A stretch of DNA of 64,000 nt from Rhizophagus irregularis (Eukaryota; Glomeromycota; Glomeromycetes; Glomerales; Glomeraceae): assembly GCF_026210795.1 (NCBI RefSeq), contig NC_089441.1, forward strand, positions 372,001 to 436,000, given 5' to 3'. The notes beneath the pieces were generated by a model. It was given only the letters and a program-made list of their open reading frames with translations, was not told the DNA's origin and searched no databases. Position numbers and translations under genes: made by a program. This document shows, in pieces, positions 46,621-57,899 of the stretch. Every line of letters starts with the position of its first letter. Position 1 is the stretch's first letter.

Positions 46621-46746
46621 ATGGCTCAAAATAACGATAAAGGTAAAAGCATATAGCATGTATATAAAAATTTAATACAAATTGAAATTATTCTAAACAA
46701 ATTTATAATATAATAAAACTAGTTCCAAAAATTGACGAAGATAAAA
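46621..46746 (+). CDS. two short candidate 5' exons of the microexon-array/pseudokinase gene
   Basis: Exon 46621-46642 begins with ATG and ends in a GTAAAAG donor. Exon 46723-46746 lies between an ACTAG acceptor and a GTAAGT donor. Joined, they read MAQNNDKVPKIDEDK plus one base. Too short for any family assignment; support comes from the clean splice motifs and the phase shared with all later units. Confidence 0.45.
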
Positions 46747-47456
46747 GTAAGTAAATAATTAACAGTTTGTAAATTATAAACAAATTTAAATTTAATTAAC
46801 CATTACTAAAATTTATTTTTCTATATTAATTTATTTTATTATTAATATTATTACAGTCGGTAAGTTAATAGCTATTTATTTTTTATTGTATTTTATATGA
46901 TATTTCAAATAATTAAATTTTCCATTGATATAATTGTTTAATAATTACTAATATTATAGAAAGTAAGTATTTAATTTTATATTAATTTAACAACATATGT
47001 AATTTAAACTAATAATATTATTTGTTATTTATTTAAATAATTAGAATGTAAGTTACTATTATATTTAATTTTTATATACAATTTTAGTATTTTATTTAAT
47101 TGATTATAATCACTTTAAAATTATTGTTAATTAATACTACAGGGTGTAAGTTATTTAATTAATTCTATTATATTTATAATATTTACATATAATTTAAACT
47201 AACTAAATTCTTTATTTAAAAAATTATTCATTCAATAATATAGGGAGTAAGTTATTTAATTAATTCTGTTATATTTATATAATATTTACATATAATCAAA
47301 TTCTTTATTTAAAAAATTATTCAAATATTTTAGATGGTAAGTAATTTTATTATATTTATATAATATTTACATATAATTTAAACTAACTAAATTCTTTATT
47401 TAAAAAATTATTCATTTAATAATATAGAGGGTAAGTTATTTATTTAATTTATATAT

Positions 47457-48729
47457 CGACTGTACTAAATCACACCACTGGTGCTCAACACCACAATCAC
47501 GTGATTATAAAATTTTTTATTGGCTAGTTTTTCGATTTTATTTGATCAATAAAAAATGTTACACCACAATGCATTACATGATTTATAAAAAAAATTTTAT
47601 GATATAACCGATAGCTGATAAGTCGTAATTGCATAACTTTAACTTTAATGCCATAATGCTGTATGTAAATGCGCTGCAATATATGAAGAAAGGACAAAAA
47701 AATATAGTAAAAAAGGACAATGAAAAAAACCAAGGGAAATAAAGGAAAGGAAAGATAAATGAAAAGGGTTGAGTAAACGAAAAGTGACGTAGGGAAATGA
47801 AAGATGAACAAAAATGATGAAAGATAAACAAAACATGATGAAGATACATGAAAAATGAACAAAGAGACGTTAAAGATCAATGAAAAAAATGAATAAGTGA
47901 AAATGATATAGGGAAACGAAAGATGAATGAAAGAGGATGAAGGAAAACGAAGATAACCGTAAAGGAAATGAAAAAAAAGTGAAGAATAGTAAAAAGGAAC
48001 AAAAGAATCGAAGGGAAAATAAAATTTAACAAGAGAAACAAAGGGGGAATAAAGGGGAGCAAAGAGAGAATAAAAAAAACAATGAAAAAAATGAAGGGGG
48101 AATAGAAAACAATGAAAGAAATAAAGGGAATAAACGAAACATAAATAGAAAGAGATGAAAGGAAACAAAATGAACAGAAATGGATGGATAAAAACAAAAA
48201 ATAATGAAGAAACAAATAAAACGAAAGTAAGAGAAATAAAGGAAAATAAAAGTAAAGCCAGAACACCACCTATAGAAAAAGAAAAAAATAATTAATATCA
48301 TTTTAACAGCGATAAAACAATAAGAGAAAAAGATGAAAGAGACTTACTCAGATTTCACTGAAATGGTACACGTCAAAAAAAGAAACAAAGGTTAATAAAA
48401 GAACAGGGAAAAGAACGAAAAGAAAAACAAAAAAAAAGAGAAAGAAAAGAAAGTAAGATTCACCTTAAATATTTGCCGGAATGGAAACTAAAAACAGCCA
48501 CGCCTAAAAAAAAAAACAAGCAAGTTTAATGAACGAAAGAAAGGAAAATAGAAGCAAAAAAAACTTACCTGTAACCTAATCCCAAAGCTAAAGATGGTCG
48601 TGTCTAAAGAAACCTAAAAAAAAGAAACAGAAAAAATAATAAATCGCGTCAAAAAAAATAAACTGATCAGTAACACATGATCACGTGATGTGTTGTTTAC
48701 AACACCACTGGTGCATTTTATAATTTTCG
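47457..48729. mobile_element. 1.27-kb insertion nested in the intron array
   Basis: Interrupts one repeat unit. TTATATAT occurs directly on both sides (47449-47456 and 48730-48737), an 8-bp putative target duplication. Both ends carry an inverted CACCACTGGTG block followed by CAACAC and ATCACGTGAT. The interior is strongly purine-rich on the plus strand; minus-strand ORFs there are F/L/S-rich and artefactual. On the minus strand, small exon-like segments with GTAAGT donors are visible at about 48550-48640 and 48470-48515. An hAT-like mechanism would fit the 8-bp duplication (inference). Confidence 0.65.
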
Positions 48730-49491
48730 TTATATATTATTTACATATAATTTAAACTAACTAAATTCTTTATTTAAAAAATTATTCAAATATTTTAGAT
48801 GGTAAGTAATTTTATTATATTTATATAATATTTACATTTAATTTAAACTAACTAAATTCTTTATTTAAAAAATTATTCAAATATTTTAGATGGTAAATTT
48901 CTATTATATTTATATAATATTTATATATTATTTACATATAATTTAAACTAACTAAATTCTTTATTTAAAAAATTATTCATTTAATAATATAGAGGGTAAG
49001 TTATTTATTTAATTCAATTATATTTATATATTATTTACATATAGTTTAAACTAACTAAATTTTTATTTAAAAAATTGTTCAAATATTTTAGATTGTAAGT
49101 AATTCTATTATATTTATATAATATTTACATATAATTTAAACTAACTAAATTCTTTATTTAAAAAATTATTCAAATATTTTAGATCGTAAGTAGTTCTATT
49201 ATATTTATATATTATTTACATATAATTTAAACTAACTAAATTCTTTATTTAAAAAATTATTCAAATATTTTAGATTGTAGGCAATTCTATTAATATAATA
49301 TTTACATATAATATAATTTAAACTAACAAAATTCTTTATTTAAAAAATTATTCAAATATTTTCTTTAGTTGGTAAGTTATTATTTATTTAATTCTATTAT
49401 ATTTATATAATATTTACATATAATTTAAACAAACTAAATTTTTATTTAATAAATTATTCAAATATTTTAGATCGTAAGTAATTTTATTATA

Positions 49492-49689
49492 CAGTCAGAC
49501 CTCTATAATTGCACTCTCCATAATTGCACCCACTATGTATACCCTCTCTAAATGCACCCTCTGGTTCGGTCCCAAGCTTATATGATCTCTAATTATTTTA
49601 CCTCTATAAATGCACACCCTCTTTAAATGCACTATTTTGAAAATTATGCATATGGTCCCAAGGGGTGTGCAATTATGGAGGTCTGACTG
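49492..49689. mobile_element. 198-bp pogo/Tigger-like MITE nested in the intron array
   Basis: The left end CAGTCAGACCTCTATAATTG and the right end are inverted copies with one mismatch over about 22 bp. TA precedes the left end; CA (a likely mutated TA) follows the right end. Removing it restores the normal unit sequence. The interior repeats 'aaatgcaccctct' words. CAGT-type ends and a TA target suggest the Tc1/mariner-pogo group. Confidence 0.75.
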
Positions 49690-52600
49690 CATTTATATAA
49701 TATTTACATATAATTTAAACTAACTAAATTCTTTATTTAAAAAATTATTCATTTAATGATATAGGGAGTAAGTTATTTATTTAATTCTATTATATTTATA
49801 TAATATTTACATATAGTTTAAACTAACTAAATTATATTTTTTTTAGCTGGTAAGTTATAAGTTATTTATTTATTTCTATTATATTTATATAATATTTACA
49901 TATAATTTAAACTAACTAAATTCTTAGAGCGTAAGTAATTCTATTATATTTATATATATTTACATATAATTTAAATAAACTAAATTCTTTATTTAATTCA
50001 ATAATATAGCTTGTAAGTTATTTATTTAATTCTATTATATTTATATAATATTTACATATAATTTAAACTAACTAAATTCTTTATTTAAAAAATTATTCTT
50101 TCAATGATATAGGGAGTAAGTTATTTATTTAATTCTATTATATTTATATAATATTTATATATAATTTAAACTAACTAAATTCTTTATTTAAAAAATTATT
50201 CATTCAATGATATAGGGAGTAAGTTATTTATTTAATTCTATTATATTTATGTAATATTTACATATAATTTAAACTAACTAAATTTTTTATTTAAAAAATT
50301 ATTCAAATATTTTTTTTAGTTGGTAAGTTATAAGTTATTTATTTAATTCTATTATATTTATATAATATTTACATATAATTTAAACTAACTAAATTCTTTA
50401 TTTAAAAAATTATTCATTCAATAATATAGTTCGTAAGTTATTTATTTAATTCTATTATATTTATATAATATTTACTTACATATATTTTAAACAAACTAAA
50501 TTCTTTATTTAAAAAATTATTCAAATATTTTTTTTAGTTGGTAAGTTATAAGTTATTTATTTAATTCTATTATATTTATATATTATTTATATATAATTTA
50601 AACTAACTAAATTCTTTATTTAAAAAATTATTCATCCAATAATATAGGGGGTAAGTTATAAGTTATTTATTTAATTCTATTATATTTATATAATATTTAC
50701 ATATAATTTAAACTAACTAAATTCTTTATTAAAAAATTATTCAAATATTTTAGATTGTAAGTAGTTCTATTATATTTATATAATATTTACATATAATTTA
50801 AACTAACTAATTCTTTATTTAAAAAATAAAAATTATTCATCCAATAATATAGGGGGTAAGTTATAAGTTATTTATTTAATTTTATTATATTTATATAATA
50901 TTTACATATAATTTAAACTAACTAAATTCTTTATTAAAAAATTATTCAAATATTTTAGATTGTAAGTAGTTCAATTATATTTATATAATATTTATATATA
51001 ATTTAAACTAACTAAATTCTTTATTTAAAAAATTATTCAAATATTTTAGATGGTAAATTTCTATTATATTTATATAATATTTACATATAGCTTAAACTAA
51101 CTAAATTCTTTATTTAAAAAATTATTCAAATATTTTAGATGGTAAATTTCTATTATATTTATATAATATTTACATATAATTTAAACTAACTAAATTCTTT
51201 ATTTAAAAAATTATTTATTTAATACTATAGTTCGTAAGTTATTCATTTAACCCTATTATATTTATATAATATTTACATATAATTTAAACAAACTAAATTC
51301 TTTATTTAATAAATTACTCATTCAATAATATAGCGAGTAAGTTATTTAATTGATTATATTATATTTATATAATATTTACATATAATTTAAACGAACTAAA
51401 TTCTTTATTTAAAAAATTACTCATTCAATAATAAAGCGAGTAAGTTATTTATTTAATTATATTATATTTATATAGTATTTACATATAATTTAAACTAATT
51501 AAATTCTTTATTTAAAAAATTACTCATTCAATAATATAGGGCGTAAGTTATTTATTTAATTATATTATATTTATATATAATTTACATATAATTTAAACTA
51601 ACTATATTCTTTATTTAAAAAATTATTCAAATATTTTAGATGGTAAAATTCTATTATATTTATATAATATTTACATATAATTTAAACTAACTAAATTCTT
51701 TATTAAAAAATTATTCAAATATTTTAGATTGTAAGTAGTTCAATTATATTTATATAATATTTATATATAATTTAAACTAACTAAATTCTTTATTTAAAAA
51801 ATTATTCAAATATTTTAGATGGTAAATTTCTATTATATTTATATAATATTTACATATAGCTTAAACTAACTAAATTCTTTATTTAAAAAATTATTCAAAT
51901 ATTTTAGATGGTAAATTTCTATTATATTTATATAATATTTACATATAATTTAAACTAACTAAATTCTTTATTTAAAAAATTATTCAAATATTTTAGATGG
52001 TAAATTTCTATTATATTTATATAATATTTACATATAGCTTAAACTAACTAAATTCTTTATTTAAAAAATTATTCAAATATTTTAGATGGTAAATTTCTAT
52101 TATATTTATATAATATTTACATATAATTTAAACTAACTAAATTCTTTATTTAAAAAATTATTCAAATATTTTGAAGGTAAATTTCTATTATATTTATATA
52201 ATATTTACATATAATTTAAACTAACTAAATTCTTTATTTAAAAAATTATTCAAATATTTTAGATGGTAAATTTCTATTATATTTATATAATATTTACATA
52301 TAATTTAAACTAACTAAATTCTTTATTTAAAAAATTATTCAAATATTTTAGATGGTAAAATTCTATTATATTTATATAATATTTACATATAATTTAAACT
52401 AACTAAATTCTTTATTTAAAAAATTATTCAAATATTTTGAAGGTAAATTTCTATTATATTTATATAATATTTACATATAATTTAAACTAACTAAATTCTT
52501 TATTTAAAAAATTATTCAAATATTTTAGATGGTAAATTTCTATTATATTTATATAATATTTACATATAACTTAAGCTAACTAAATTCTTATTTAAAAAAT

Positions 52601-54921
52601 TATTCAAATATTTTAGATGGTAAATTTCTATTATATTTATATAATATTTACATATAATTTAAACTAACTAAATTCTTTATTTAATAAATTATTCATTCAA
52701 TAATATAGGGGGTAAGTTATTTATTTAATTCTATTATATAATATTACATATAATTAAACTAACTAAATTCTTATTTAATAAATTATTCTTTCAATAATAT
52801 AGGGCGTAAGTTATTTATTTAATTCTATTATATAATATTACATATAATTTAGACTAACAAATTCTTTATTTAAAAAATTATTCAAATATTTTAGATTGTA
52901 AGTAATTCTATTATATTTATATAATATTTACATATAGTTTAAACTAACTAAATTTTTTATTTAAAAAATTATTCATTCAATAATATAGGGGGTAAGTTAT
53001 TTATTTAATTCTACTATATTTATAAAATATTTATTTACATATATCTTAAAAAAACTAAATTCTTTATTTAAAAAATTATTCAAATATTTTTTTTAGTTTG
53101 TAAGTTATAAGTTATTTATTTAATTTTATTATATTTATATAATATTTACATATAATTTATACTAACTAAATTCTTTATTTAAAATATTATTCTTTCAATG
53201 ATGTAGGGAGTAAGTTATTTATCTAATTCTATTATATTTATATAATATTTACATATAATTTAAACTAACTAAATTCTTTATTTAAAAAATTATTCAAATA
53301 TTTTAGATGGTAAATTTCTATTATATTTATATAATATTTACATATAATTTAAACTAACTATATTCTTTATTTAAAAAATTATTCATTCAATGATATAGAA
53401 AGTAAGTTATTTATCTAATTCTATTATATTTATATAATATTTACATATAATTTAAACTAACTAAATTCTTTATTTAAAAAATTATTCTTTCAATGATGTA
53501 GGGAGTAAGTTATTTATCTAATTCTATTATATTTATATAATATTTACATATAATTTAAACTAACTAAATTCTTTATTTGAATAATTATTCATTCAATAAT
53601 ATAGTTCGTAAGTTATTTATTTAATTCTATTATATTTATATAATATTTATTTACATATAATTTAAACTAAATTCTTTATTTAAAAAATTATTCATTCAAT
53701 AATATAGAGAGTAAGTTATAAGTTATTTATTTAATTCTATTATATTTATATAATATTTATTTACATACAATTTAAACTAACTAAATTCTTTATCTAAAAA
53801 ATTATTCATTCAATGATATAGGGAGTAAGTTATTATTTAATTCTATTATATTTATATAATATTTACATATAATTTAAACTAACTAAATTCTTTATTTAAA
53901 TAATTATTCATTCAATAATATAGTTCGTAAGTTATTTATTTAATTCTATTATATTTATATAATATTTACATATAATTTAAACTAACTAAATTCTTTATTT
54001 AAAAAATTATTCAAATATTTTAGATGGTAAATTTCTATTATATTTATATAATATTTACATATAATTTAAACTAACTAAATTCTTTATTTAAAAAATTATT
54101 CATTCAATAATATAGAGGGTAAGTTATAAGTTATTTATTTAATTCTATTATATTTATGTAATATTTACATATAATTTAAGCTAACTAAATTCTTTATTTA
54201 AAAAATTATTCATTCAATAATATAGGGTGTAAGTTATTTATTTAATTCTATTATATTTACATATAATTTAAACTAACCAAATTCTTTATTTAAAAAATTA
54301 TTCAAATATTTTAGATTGTAAGTAATTCTATTATATTTATATAATATTTACATATAATTTAAACTAACTAAATTCTTTATTTAAAAAATTATTCAAATAT
54401 TTTAGATTGTAAGTATTCTATTATATTTATATAATATTTACATATAATTTAAACAAATTAAATTCTTATTTAAAAAATTATTCAAATATTTTAGATTGTA
54501 AGTATTCTATTATATTTATATAATATTTACATATAGTTTAAACTAACTAAATTCTTTATCTAAAAAATTGTTCAAATATTTTAGATCGTAAGTAATTCTA
54601 TTACATTTATATAATATTTACATATAATTTAAACTAACTAAATTCTTTATTTAAAAAATTATTCAAATATTTTTAGTTGGTAAGTTATAAGTTATTTATT
54701 TAATTCTATTATATTTGTATAATATTTACTTGATTTAAATTAACTAAATTCTTATTTAAAAAATTATTCAAATATTTTTTTAAAAATTATTTATTTAATT
54801 CTATTATACTTATATAAATTTAAATTAATTAATTAGGGTAAATATGATTAATATTATTATTTAATATTAAATTTATTTTAAATTTTAATATAATTTCATA
54901 TTTTCATTTTTATTTTTAAAG

Positions 54922-57899
54922 ATCTGATAGTAGTGGAAGTAAAATTATGGATCAATTTATTTCTGAAAATAAATTAGAATGGATTCCTTATGATAAATTT
55001 CAAAATATTGAATATCTTGAGAAAGGAGGATTCGGGACTATCTATTACGCTATGTGTAATTCTTATAACGTAATTCTTAAATCTTTCAATTATCTTAATA
55101 ATTCAGATGAAAGATTAAATGAATTTTTAAATGAAGTATGATTAAATATTGTTTTTTTCAATATAATAATTTATTTATATTAATTTACTAAATATTATTT
55201 TATAGTGGAAAATTATTGATTCAGAGAGAATTATTAGAATATATGGATTTACAAAAAATCCAGATGCTTCAAATTATATATTAATAATGCAATATACAAA
55301 TAAAGGTAATATAAGAGGATGTTTATCAGAAATAACAAAAAATTGGAAACTGAGATTACTCAATTTATATAAAATTAATACTGGCCTTAATAAAATTCAT
55401 GAAAAAGGTCTTATTCATTATAACCTTCATGATGGTAATATTTTATGTAATGAATATCAAAATGATGTATATGGAATTTTTATTAGTGATTATTTAGGAT
55501 TATATCAGCTTGCAAAATCTTTTTTAAAAGAAAATAATATTTATGGTATTATACCATTTATGGCACCTGAAATTTTAAAAGGTCAATCTTATACTCAGGC
55601 TAGTGATATATATAGTTTTTCTATGATTATGTGGGAATTTACATCTGGAATTCCACCATTTAGTGATAAAGCACATGATCTTCAACTTGCTTTAGGTATC
55701 TGTAAAGGTGAACGTCCTGAAATTATTGAAAATACTCCACAATGTTATGTAGATTTAATGAAAAAATGTTGGGATGAAGATCCATTAAAAAGGCCATCTT
55801 CTGAAGAAGTTTTAAATATTTTTACCAGTTGGGTTTTCTATTCTGAAGAGGTCAGTGATGAATTAAAAAGTAATATTATGGAATTTATAAATGCACCAAT
55901 TGAGCATAATAACCTTACTGTAGAACCTCATCCAAAAGCATGTTATACAAGTCATTTACTTGATTTTACTAGTAAAGAATTAAATGAAATTCTAGAAGAA
56001 TCTCAAGAATTGAGTTCTTTTGAATTGAAACAAGATGTTGATGCTGAGCAGAAACTTCCTGAATTTATAAATGCACCAATTGGGCATAATAACCTTACTA
56101 TAGAACCACATCCAAAAGCATGTTATACAAGTCATTTACTTGATTTTACTGGTAAAGAATTAAATGAAAATCTAGAAGAATCTCAAGAATTGAGTTCTTT
56201 TGAATTGAAACAAGATGTTGATGCCGAGCAGGAACTTCTTGAATTAGAAAAGATTGCTGAAACTTATTATCAAAATTTTCAAAATGAATTAAAAGAAAAG
56301 CAATTAGCATATCAGAATATTCAAATGGAATTAACTAATTTACAAGAAAAGAATTCTCAATTTGAGCAAAATAATCAAAGTTTAAGACTTAATATGACTG
56401 TTCAAATTAAAGAATTTGCAAAAAAATTAAATACTTTACAAACCCAAATTACTTACCTGCAAAATGAAAAGCAAACTTTAGCTGGCAATTTAACTGAACA
56501 GTTGAAACAAATCAGTCAGTTAAATCAAGAAAACAATAATCTGCAAAATCAATTAACTCAATCAGAAGCTAATATTCAAGAATTAAAATCTCAGCAGGAT
56601 CAAATAGAAGAAGAAAATCTTAAGTTAGAAAATGAGTTAGTTGATTTGCAACAAAGAAATTTTAAATTTGAGCAAGATAATCAAAATCTGAGGCTTAAAT
56701 CAGCTGTACAAATTAAGGAATTTGCGGAAAAAGAAAACATTTTTCAAACCCAAATTATTAACCTGCAAAATGAAAAGCAAAATTTAGCTGGCAATTTAAC
56801 TGAACAATTGGAACAAAATAAACTGACTAACCAGCAAGTTCAAATTCAAATCAGCCAGTTAGAGCAAGAAAAAATTGATTTGCAAGAAAAATTAACTCAA
56901 ACAGAAGTCAAGATTCAGGAATTAAAATCTCATAAAGAAGGTTTAATTAAACAAAAGGAGCAATTAGAAAATAGACTAAATCAGTCTCAAGTTAATTATG
57001 AACAAATAGAACAAGAAAAAACTAAGTTACAAAGTATGGTGAAAGATCTGTCACAGGATCAAAAGCTTAAAGTAAAATTAGAAAAAGAAATTGCTCAATT
57101 GGAACAAAAATTGATTAGTGAAAAACAAATCAAAATGCAATTGACTCAAGCTTTACAGATTAAAGAAGGTAAAATCAATGAATTAGAACAAAGTTTGATT
57201 AATCTTGATCAAAAGCGTATTAAGCAGTTAAAAGACAAAGAAAAAGAATTGAATAAAGTTAAAGGGGAATTAGTTAATAAATTAACTAGTGGAGAAAATA
57301 CTAAAAAAATACATAAAGAAAAAGAAGCTAAACAAAAAGAGTTAGTTGAGCTCCAGCAAGAATTATCAAGAACATCAACTTCTTATGATGCTAATAGAAA
57401 AAAACAGGTTCTCAATCAAGTTAATGATTTTCTGAAAGCCAAGGAAGATTTCTTAACTTTACGAGAAGAAGCTATTAAAAAACTGCAAAGATGTTTTGAT
57501 TGTCTAGATAACTCTATTAATAAGGATAGCAATTCTACTAGTTCTACCAGAGTTATGAAAACCTCTGAATCAATTGACAAGTATACTAAAGAATTTCAAA
57601 ATATTCTTGTAAAATATAATGATGAATCATTATGGCTGAACAAAAATTATTACTCCTTAAAGAAAATTGTTCAGGAAAATAAAGAGTTGGAAGTTAGCAT
57701 CATGATTGAAAATATTCTTAAGTTGAATTCTTTTAATCTTGATAAATATAATATATTTAAATTTGCTACTAATTCTCAGGAAGGAACCACAATTCAATTA
57801 AATTCTAATATGATGGCAGAAGATATCAATTCATTAAGAAAGAATTTGGATGAATTAAAATTGGAATTAAAACAAGAAAAAGAAGGATTAAAAATTTAG
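54922..57899 (+). CDS. pseudokinase with long coiled-coil tail
   Basis: Exons 54922-55135 and 55206-57899, phase 0 intron at the family's EFLNE position. The frame is open upstream of the ATG at 54947: SDSSGSKIMDQFI aligns with the SGNxKIDNFI segment of related kinases, so 54947 is probably not the true start. The N-lobe keeps LEKGGFGTIY and the VILK lysine, but the catalytic loop reads HYNLHDGN (HRD Asp replaced by Asn) and DFG reads DYLG, so it is a predicted pseudokinase. APE, DIYSF and the LMKKCWDEDPLKRP helix are conserved. The tail contains an exact 180-bp duplication (55881 and 56061; EFINAPIxHNNLT...HPKACYTSHLLDF), then about 400 residues of Gln/Glu/Leu-rich heptad coiled coil with an internal repeat of about 102 residues (56341 and 56648). 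The zinc ribbon is absent. Likely a scaffold. Confidence 0.85.

Follow-up and report, generated by a model that had tools for sequence, protein, structure and literature searches.

Anatomy of the array in the window

The window analyzed in this study is a 64,000-nucleotide (nt) stretch of Rhizophagus irregularis DNA (contig NC_089441.1, positions 372,001 to 436,000 of the forward strand), and it carries a predicted protein kinase gene in which a long array of similar introns, separated by putative exons of only three nucleotides, lies between the short first exons and the kinase exons. All exons of our gene model are on the plus strand. The model opens with exon 1 at 46621-46642 (22 nt, ATG start, MAQNNDK plus one base), whose length of 1 mod 3, as in the paralogs, sets phase 1, and continues with exon 2 at 46723-46746 (24 nt, phase 1 in and out). 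Then follow the array of 65 three-nt exons at 46857-54679 (the first, TCG, at 46857-46859 and the last, TTG, at 54677-54679), separated by GT-AG introns mostly of 80-110 nt, and a 1-nt exon, G, at 54837, in the context AG-G-GTAAAT, which turns phase 1 into phase 2. The first large exon, at 54922-55135, contains the start of the kinase domain and needs two preceding bases, and the last exon, at 55206-57899, contains the remaining kinase domain and a long C-terminal region, with the stop codon at 57897-57899. The protein encoded downstream of the array is a clear kinase (PF07714, 4.4e-34; PF00069, 1.7e-31).

We counted 67 head-to-tail acceptor/donor junctions in the array (46621-54921), with donors from 46860 to 54680, and exactly three bases lie between acceptor and donor (AG-NNN-GT) at 65 of them. 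The two exceptions, at 52177 and 52443, read TTTTGAAG followed directly by GTAAAT; these AAG-GTAAAT units, at 52173-52182 and, 266 base pairs (bp) past the first and inside a 266-bp-period repeat, at 52439-52448, carry no 3-nt exon and would represent a zero-nt ratchet or a skipped unit, without effect on the frame. The introns of the array are short and rich in A and T; their donors are GTAAGT or GTAAAT, and they carry a branch motif of the CTAAC type. Among the 64 units with a donor spacing of 70-120, the donor starts with GTA in all 64, the acceptor has G in all 64 and A in 0.97, and the branch motif is CTAAC in 51, or CTAAC, CTAAT or ACTAA in 61. The unit number of about 67, the three-base spacing in 65 units and the presence of donor, branch-like motif and acceptor, all claimed in an earlier note made from the sequence alone, were thus confirmed by the count. 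The same note took the near-invariant flanks as a sign of function; the flanks are indeed conserved, but most interior columns of the window units are conserved to the same level as the splice sites (about 0.9-0.98), so that conserved flanks alone are no proof of function, and the evidence for a function of the array comes from the paralogs. The array is also interrupted by two insertions of other sequence, one in one array intron (approximately 47455-48730) and the other, shorter and bearing inverted repeats close to its two ends, again in one array intron (approximately 49493-49690), neither of them assigned to a strand. The model keeps an open reading frame over the introns that hold these insertions.

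Three further features of the gene were observed. A higher-order repeat with a period of 266 bp, in about three units, extends over 51558-53591 and includes both AAG-GTAAAT units, which suggests a recent block duplication. The last coding exon contains, at 55881-56245, a 180-bp direct repeat in two copies with 95% matches, by which 60 residues are duplicated in frame. A conserved AACAG-TTT-GTAAAT stands at 46747-46768, its counterpart being found about 19-30 nt past the exon 2 donor across the window and the paralogs, with CTT or CCT in the paralogs in place of TTT. The TTT at 46766-46768 is a doubtful extra 3-nt exon, which we left out of the model because an intron of only about 20 nt would be needed; if used, it would follow a remarkably short intron (19 nt in the window), and otherwise it would be bypassed in frame.

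Array-bearing genes in the genome

The unit recurs in the R. irregularis genome (146.7 Mb, 32 contigs) far more often than chance would allow: a 38-base core of it, allowing up to 3 mismatches, gave 1,571 matches against 0 for the reversed control. Of these matches 710 fell inside the window slice and the 41 loci fetched by then, and arrays additional to those read therefore probably exist. The kinase exon downstream of the array, used as a second query, gave 40 scored matches (self included) among 318 candidates. A total of 47 further stretches were fetched and all were used, making with the window 48 stretches and 1,678 microexons; the counts per stretch are lower bounds, since some stretches are cut by their ends. 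Under the final detection rule 3-nt exons were found in all 47, 46 of them having 17 to 84 each and one (L046) a single one, and the kinase exon lies downstream of the array in 39 of the 48 stretches. The structure is a feature of a gene family, extending beyond the window; neither this nor the 1-nt exon by which the frame is fixed was visible to the earlier note.

The three-base spacing also prevails in the paralogs. When both types of site were scored separately, with matrices trained on the 3-nt junctions, the nearest downstream donor in the first 25 stretches was at distance 3 from the acceptor in 688 cases, at distance 1 in 19 and at any other distance up to 40 in 12, while 263 acceptor-like sites had no donor within 40. 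The donors in 42 stretches were GTAAGT (1,258), GTATGT (113) and GTAAAT (93). The median intron length is 96 nt, and intron lengths use all three residues modulo 3 (548, 478 and 419 of 1,445), the exons being constant at 3.

Two stretches deserve separate mention. L025 (G000:C13:290000-299900, minus strand) has the most microexons, 84, and no 1-nt exon was detected in it; its downstream exon is not the kinase exon but resembles, by eye, the C-terminal region of the window gene, and is open with one preceding base, that is in phase 1, fitting the array. L046 (G000:C14:3026000-3030000, minus strand), a kinase relative, carries a single detected 3-nt exon, TTG, and the 1-nt exon, and is possibly close to the state before expansion.

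Long AT-rich repeats are prone to assembly errors, and the exact copy number of units in the assembly may be off. That the array as such is an artefact of assembly or collapse is, however, scarcely credible, because similar but non-identical arrays under a coding-type constraint occur in 46 further stretches on many contigs, and a highly uniform Illumina and Nanopore coverage of the scaffolds is reported in the account of the assembly (PMC10234402).

Reading phase and the 1-nt exon

The exons around the array fix the phase in which its microexons would be read. Of 42 stretches examined, many of which are cut upstream, 18 showed an ATGGCT or ATGGGT start, and exon 1 is 1 mod 3 long in all 18; exon 2 is 24 nt in all six matched stretches, and chains of 3-nt exons preserve phase 1. 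At the other end, the kinase exon needs two preceding bases in 37 of 39 stretches as scored by program. A chain in phase 1 and a kinase exon needing two bases leave one base missing, and this base would be supplied by the 1-nt exon. Such an exon, usually AG-A-GTAAGT, was detected by program in 36 of the 39 stretches (the base being A in 33 of the 36) and by eye in two more, L044 and L046. The automatic choice of acceptor was wrong for L030, L044 and L046; the two stretches among the 39 that did not score as needing two bases are L030 and L046, while L044 did so despite the wrong acceptor. In L044 and L046 the usual kinase acceptor is present by eye; in L030 the 1-nt exon was detected by program, and the acceptor was judged from the translation alone.

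For the window gene, the model of 70 exons gives a single frame of 1,049 amino acids, whereas the model lacking the 1-nt exon meets a stop at residue 99. Base composition by microexon position, compared with that of the window kinase exons, is closest in phase 1 (L1 distance 1.078, against 1.762 for phase 0 and 1.664 for phase 2) and so supports that phase. With phase 1, the microexons are not codons: each completes one codon with two bases and opens the following codon with its third.

Reading in phase 0, with each microexon as one codon, was attractive at first, since no TAA, TAG or TGA triplet occurs among the 878 microexons of the first set against 26.7 expected if the positions were independent. 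It was rejected because TGA or TAG triplets were found in the new loci L027, L033, L034 and L035, because it is at odds with both exon 1 and the kinase exon, and because the order test described below favors phase 1.

Avoidance of stop codons at the microexon joins

If the microexons are translated in phase 1, a codon is formed at every join from the last base of one microexon and the first two bases of the next. We counted stops among these codons for neighbors within 140 nt and compared the count with that after shuffling the partners within each stretch (1,000 shuffles). In the 48 stretches, one stop was found in 1,536 joins, against 64.1 in the shuffles (standard deviation [SD] 6.0, minimum 44). 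The 25 stretches used for development of the detection rule gave 1 stop in 812 (37.9 expected); with the rule frozen, 17 new loci chosen from the array hits gave 0 in 607 (21.9 expected, SD 3.5) and six more, chosen from weaker kinase-exon hits, gave 0 in 122 (4.4 expected). Reading the first set in phase 2 gave 145 stops. Six apparent 3-nt exons TAA, in L029, L032, L035, L039, L041 and L043, are misread 1-nt exon sites; they were excluded from the 48-stretch test, the pair counts and the phase counts, and kept in the frozen-rule count of the 17 loci. The deficit can also be seen directly in 42 stretches: AA, AG or GA opens the next microexon in 1 of 335 cases after a T-ending microexon and in 301 of 1,079 after the others, and when each pair type is counted once the figures are 1 of 106 against 98 of 333.

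The deficit is confined to immediate neighbors. At lags 2, 3, 4 and 5 in the same 48 stretches there were 58, 71, 53 and 60 stops against 56.5, 52.5, 53.4 and 53.6 expected, with no deficit at any of them. Since these lags come from the same arrays, repeat structure alone does not explain lag 1, and tandem duplication, which acts on all lags, is a poor explanation of a deficit at lag 1 only. The bases of the tested codons are about 95 nt apart in the DNA and the pre-mRNA and meet only after splicing, so that an untranslated repeat cannot see such stops.

These results bear on the possibility that the array is an untranslated tandem repeat, lying either within a single long intron or ahead of a kinase gene whose start would be the ATG at 54947, with the 3-nt spacing inherited from a founding unit. 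The interiors of the window units are alike too, the ATG at 54947 is in frame within the kinase exon, and the stop deficit of the window alone is not significant; but a deficit limited to lag 1 was replicated in new loci, the 1-nt exon is conserved across divergent paralogs, and joining exon 2 directly to the kinase exon, with the array removed in one splice, shifts the frame and leads to a stop at residue 34, all of which make this explanation very unlikely. A satellite or minisatellite without coding role was likewise rejected on the joined-frame constraint, which was found family-wide, although it does not reach significance in the window by itself.

The lags also speak to combinatorial alternative splicing, by which microexons would be freely included or skipped and each gene would give many linkers. 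Any 3-nt exon can be skipped without frameshift, and units with broken sites are tolerated. Bypassing one microexon, however, makes a stop in 58 of 1,449 cases, which indicates that selection acted on the full ordered product, and that no deficit is seen from lag 2 onward speaks against skipping as a routine event. Low-level skipping may take place, but free combination appears improbable.

A chain of recursive splice sites, subdividing one long intron and leaving no exonic bases in the mRNA, had been among the proposals of the earlier note, and the two AAG-GTAAAT units of the window have the zero-nt form expected of it. Three bases are nevertheless kept at 65 of the 67 window sites, and the base order across the family shows coding selection; we therefore disfavor this reading and give it very little credence. 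Of the dozens of one-codon microexons for a variable linker, also proposed there, the microexons are strongly supported by stop avoidance limited to neighbors, while the assignment of one codon to each fails by the phase.

Interpretation and points against it

The anatomy of the array, its many paralogs, the phase accounting and a stop deficit confined to neighboring joins, all established at the level of sequence, make it highly probable that the array consists of U2-type introns of about 95 nt each between 3-nt exons, and that all or nearly all of these are constitutively spliced in order and translated in phase 1 as about 65 residues before the kinase, the frame being restored by the 1-nt exon. 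The microexons are, then, very probably spliced constitutively and translated, and the array is very probably neither a satellite nor one intron.

Several observations weigh against this interpretation. In the window alone, the absence of stops (0 of 60 joins, 1.9 expected) is not significant, and this sample being too small, the decision rests on the family. The donor and acceptor rule was widened stepwise on the first 25 stretches to fill double-length gaps, many of which contained units with GTATGT donors; with incomplete lists, some microexons that were not adjacent seemed so and were read as stops, and since gap filling was seen during rule-making to remove apparent stops, the first 25 stretches cannot count as a blind test. 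When the distance limit was lifted, the 17 new loci gave 2 stops in 651 joins, both in L028 across double-length gaps that contain a unit outside the detection rule. Phase 0 is likewise free of stops in the first set. At lag 3 there is an excess of stops (71 against 52.5 expected, SD 5.5) that none of the explanations considered here accounts for and that may reflect the order of recurring unit types. Some copies look damaged: L001 has one internal stop, L018 has a stop at the 1-nt join, and L012 is the only stretch in which the 1-nt exon is lost, through a changed acceptor. In L014 the match to exon 1 (G000:C5:3870122-3870150) has AAG in place of ATG, while its array is open in phase 1, which suggests damage or another start. 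Some units have broken splice sites. Finally, a genome search for spliced retrocopies gave 0 matches for each of two joined-exon patterns.

Predicted product

The joined microexons predict a peptide in which R, D, F, N, L, E and W (W 7.1%) are abundant and S, P and T scarce. The predicted tryptic peptides of the model include IVLGDWDYDVPTR, HDYDDDDDDDGGHWVWNER and IHEGYYYYLGSDSSGSK, of which IHEGYYYYLGSDSSGSK runs from microexons through the 1-nt exon into the kinase exon. As a tentative suggestion, the product could be an N-terminal segment, variable, charged and aromatic in character, by which docking or regulation of the kinase is tuned.

Comparison with known systems

Recursive splicing resembles the array in that an acceptor touches a donor and removal is stepwise; its sites are sparse, lie in very long introns and leave no exon. 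Single exons of 1 or 3 nt, such as the 1-nt exon of Arabidopsis APC11 (PMC4674806), the tiny exons of plant APC11 and VPS55 (PMC8831610), the 3-bp exon of Drosophila homothorax (PMC7392893) and the RPS24 microexons with a 3-bp exon (PMC12686416, PMC11162997), all as those reports describe them, indicate that accurate splicing of such exons is possible, but there they number one or few per gene, in contrast to the chains of dozens predicted here.

Another likeness is to the micro-exon genes (MEGs) of Schistosoma, a gene family described in PMC10526429 in which numerous coding exons of very small size follow one another, the protein is variable and annotation is difficult. According to that report, MEGs have 10-20 exons of 6-81 bp (3-81 in its abstract), mostly of 15 bp and mostly multiples of three, with introns of 0.1-5 kb, and encode secreted proteins with isoforms arising by alternative splicing. 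Unlike the MEGs, the genes described here have up to 84 microexons per stretch, all of 3 nt plus one of 1 nt, near-identical short introns with a median of 96 nt, and kinases as products, and their microexons would be included in full and in an order-dependent manner.

Fungal stwintrons and Introner-like elements share with the array the multiplication of similar introns in fungal genomes, but, as described (PMC8469720, PMC4457414), stwintrons are nested and introners are dispersed insertions, and neither stands head-to-tail with a translated residue between. Introners are dispersed into unrelated genes; in the stretches read here a kinase exon follows in 39 of 48, and L025 ends before another exon. 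In the potato RdRp gene an intron was reported to be gained by tandem genomic duplication (PMC4974935); duplication is likewise the source of introns there, as a single case and with no array.

Among the papers listed in our searches of the open-access literature (PMC), none was on chains of 3-nt exons, or on such a structure in Rhizophagus, while the component parts, U2-type introns and exons of 3 nt and 1 nt, are each known. Dozens of such exons in a row, repeated in dozens of genes, would to our knowledge be split-gene organization at its most extreme.

Proposed mechanism and significance

Splice sites 3 nt apart could hardly be occupied simultaneously by large complexes, and for this reason we infer that the introns would be recognized singly, by intron definition, and removed one after another. 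For the 1-nt exon of APC11 the authors argue for intron definition and sequential intron removal (PMC4674806), and the same would take place here, repeated dozens of times. The array would gain and lose units, each consisting of an intron and 3 nt, through unequal exchange, as higher-order repeats such as that of 266-bp period suggest, and this fits the earlier proposal of growth by duplication of an intron with three exonic bases. Each exchange would add or remove one residue, and selection would purge the joins that make stops. Whether the whole picture holds, namely a protein segment written one residue per intron, by 17 to 84 exons of 3 nt in a row that as a rule end with a phase-shifting 1-nt exon, in some 40 genes or more, with ordered, ratchet-like processive splicing and with exchange evolving a hypervariable N-terminus for each kinase, we regard as an evenly balanced question.

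In the annotated gene models of these kinases the N-termini may be missing, because aligners fail on tiny exons unless told of them; failure of alignment by STAR at a 1-nt exon is one example given (PMC8831610). The test of stop avoidance by lag needs no RNA data and can be used to look for exons of this kind in any genome. For the spliceosome, the arrays raise the question of how 65 introns, with sites three bases apart, are removed without skipping, and, with 1,678 microexons counted, they provide about 1,700 natural sites at which microexon recognition can be tested. The finding suggests that intron-driven duplication can lengthen a protein residue by residue while stops are selected against.

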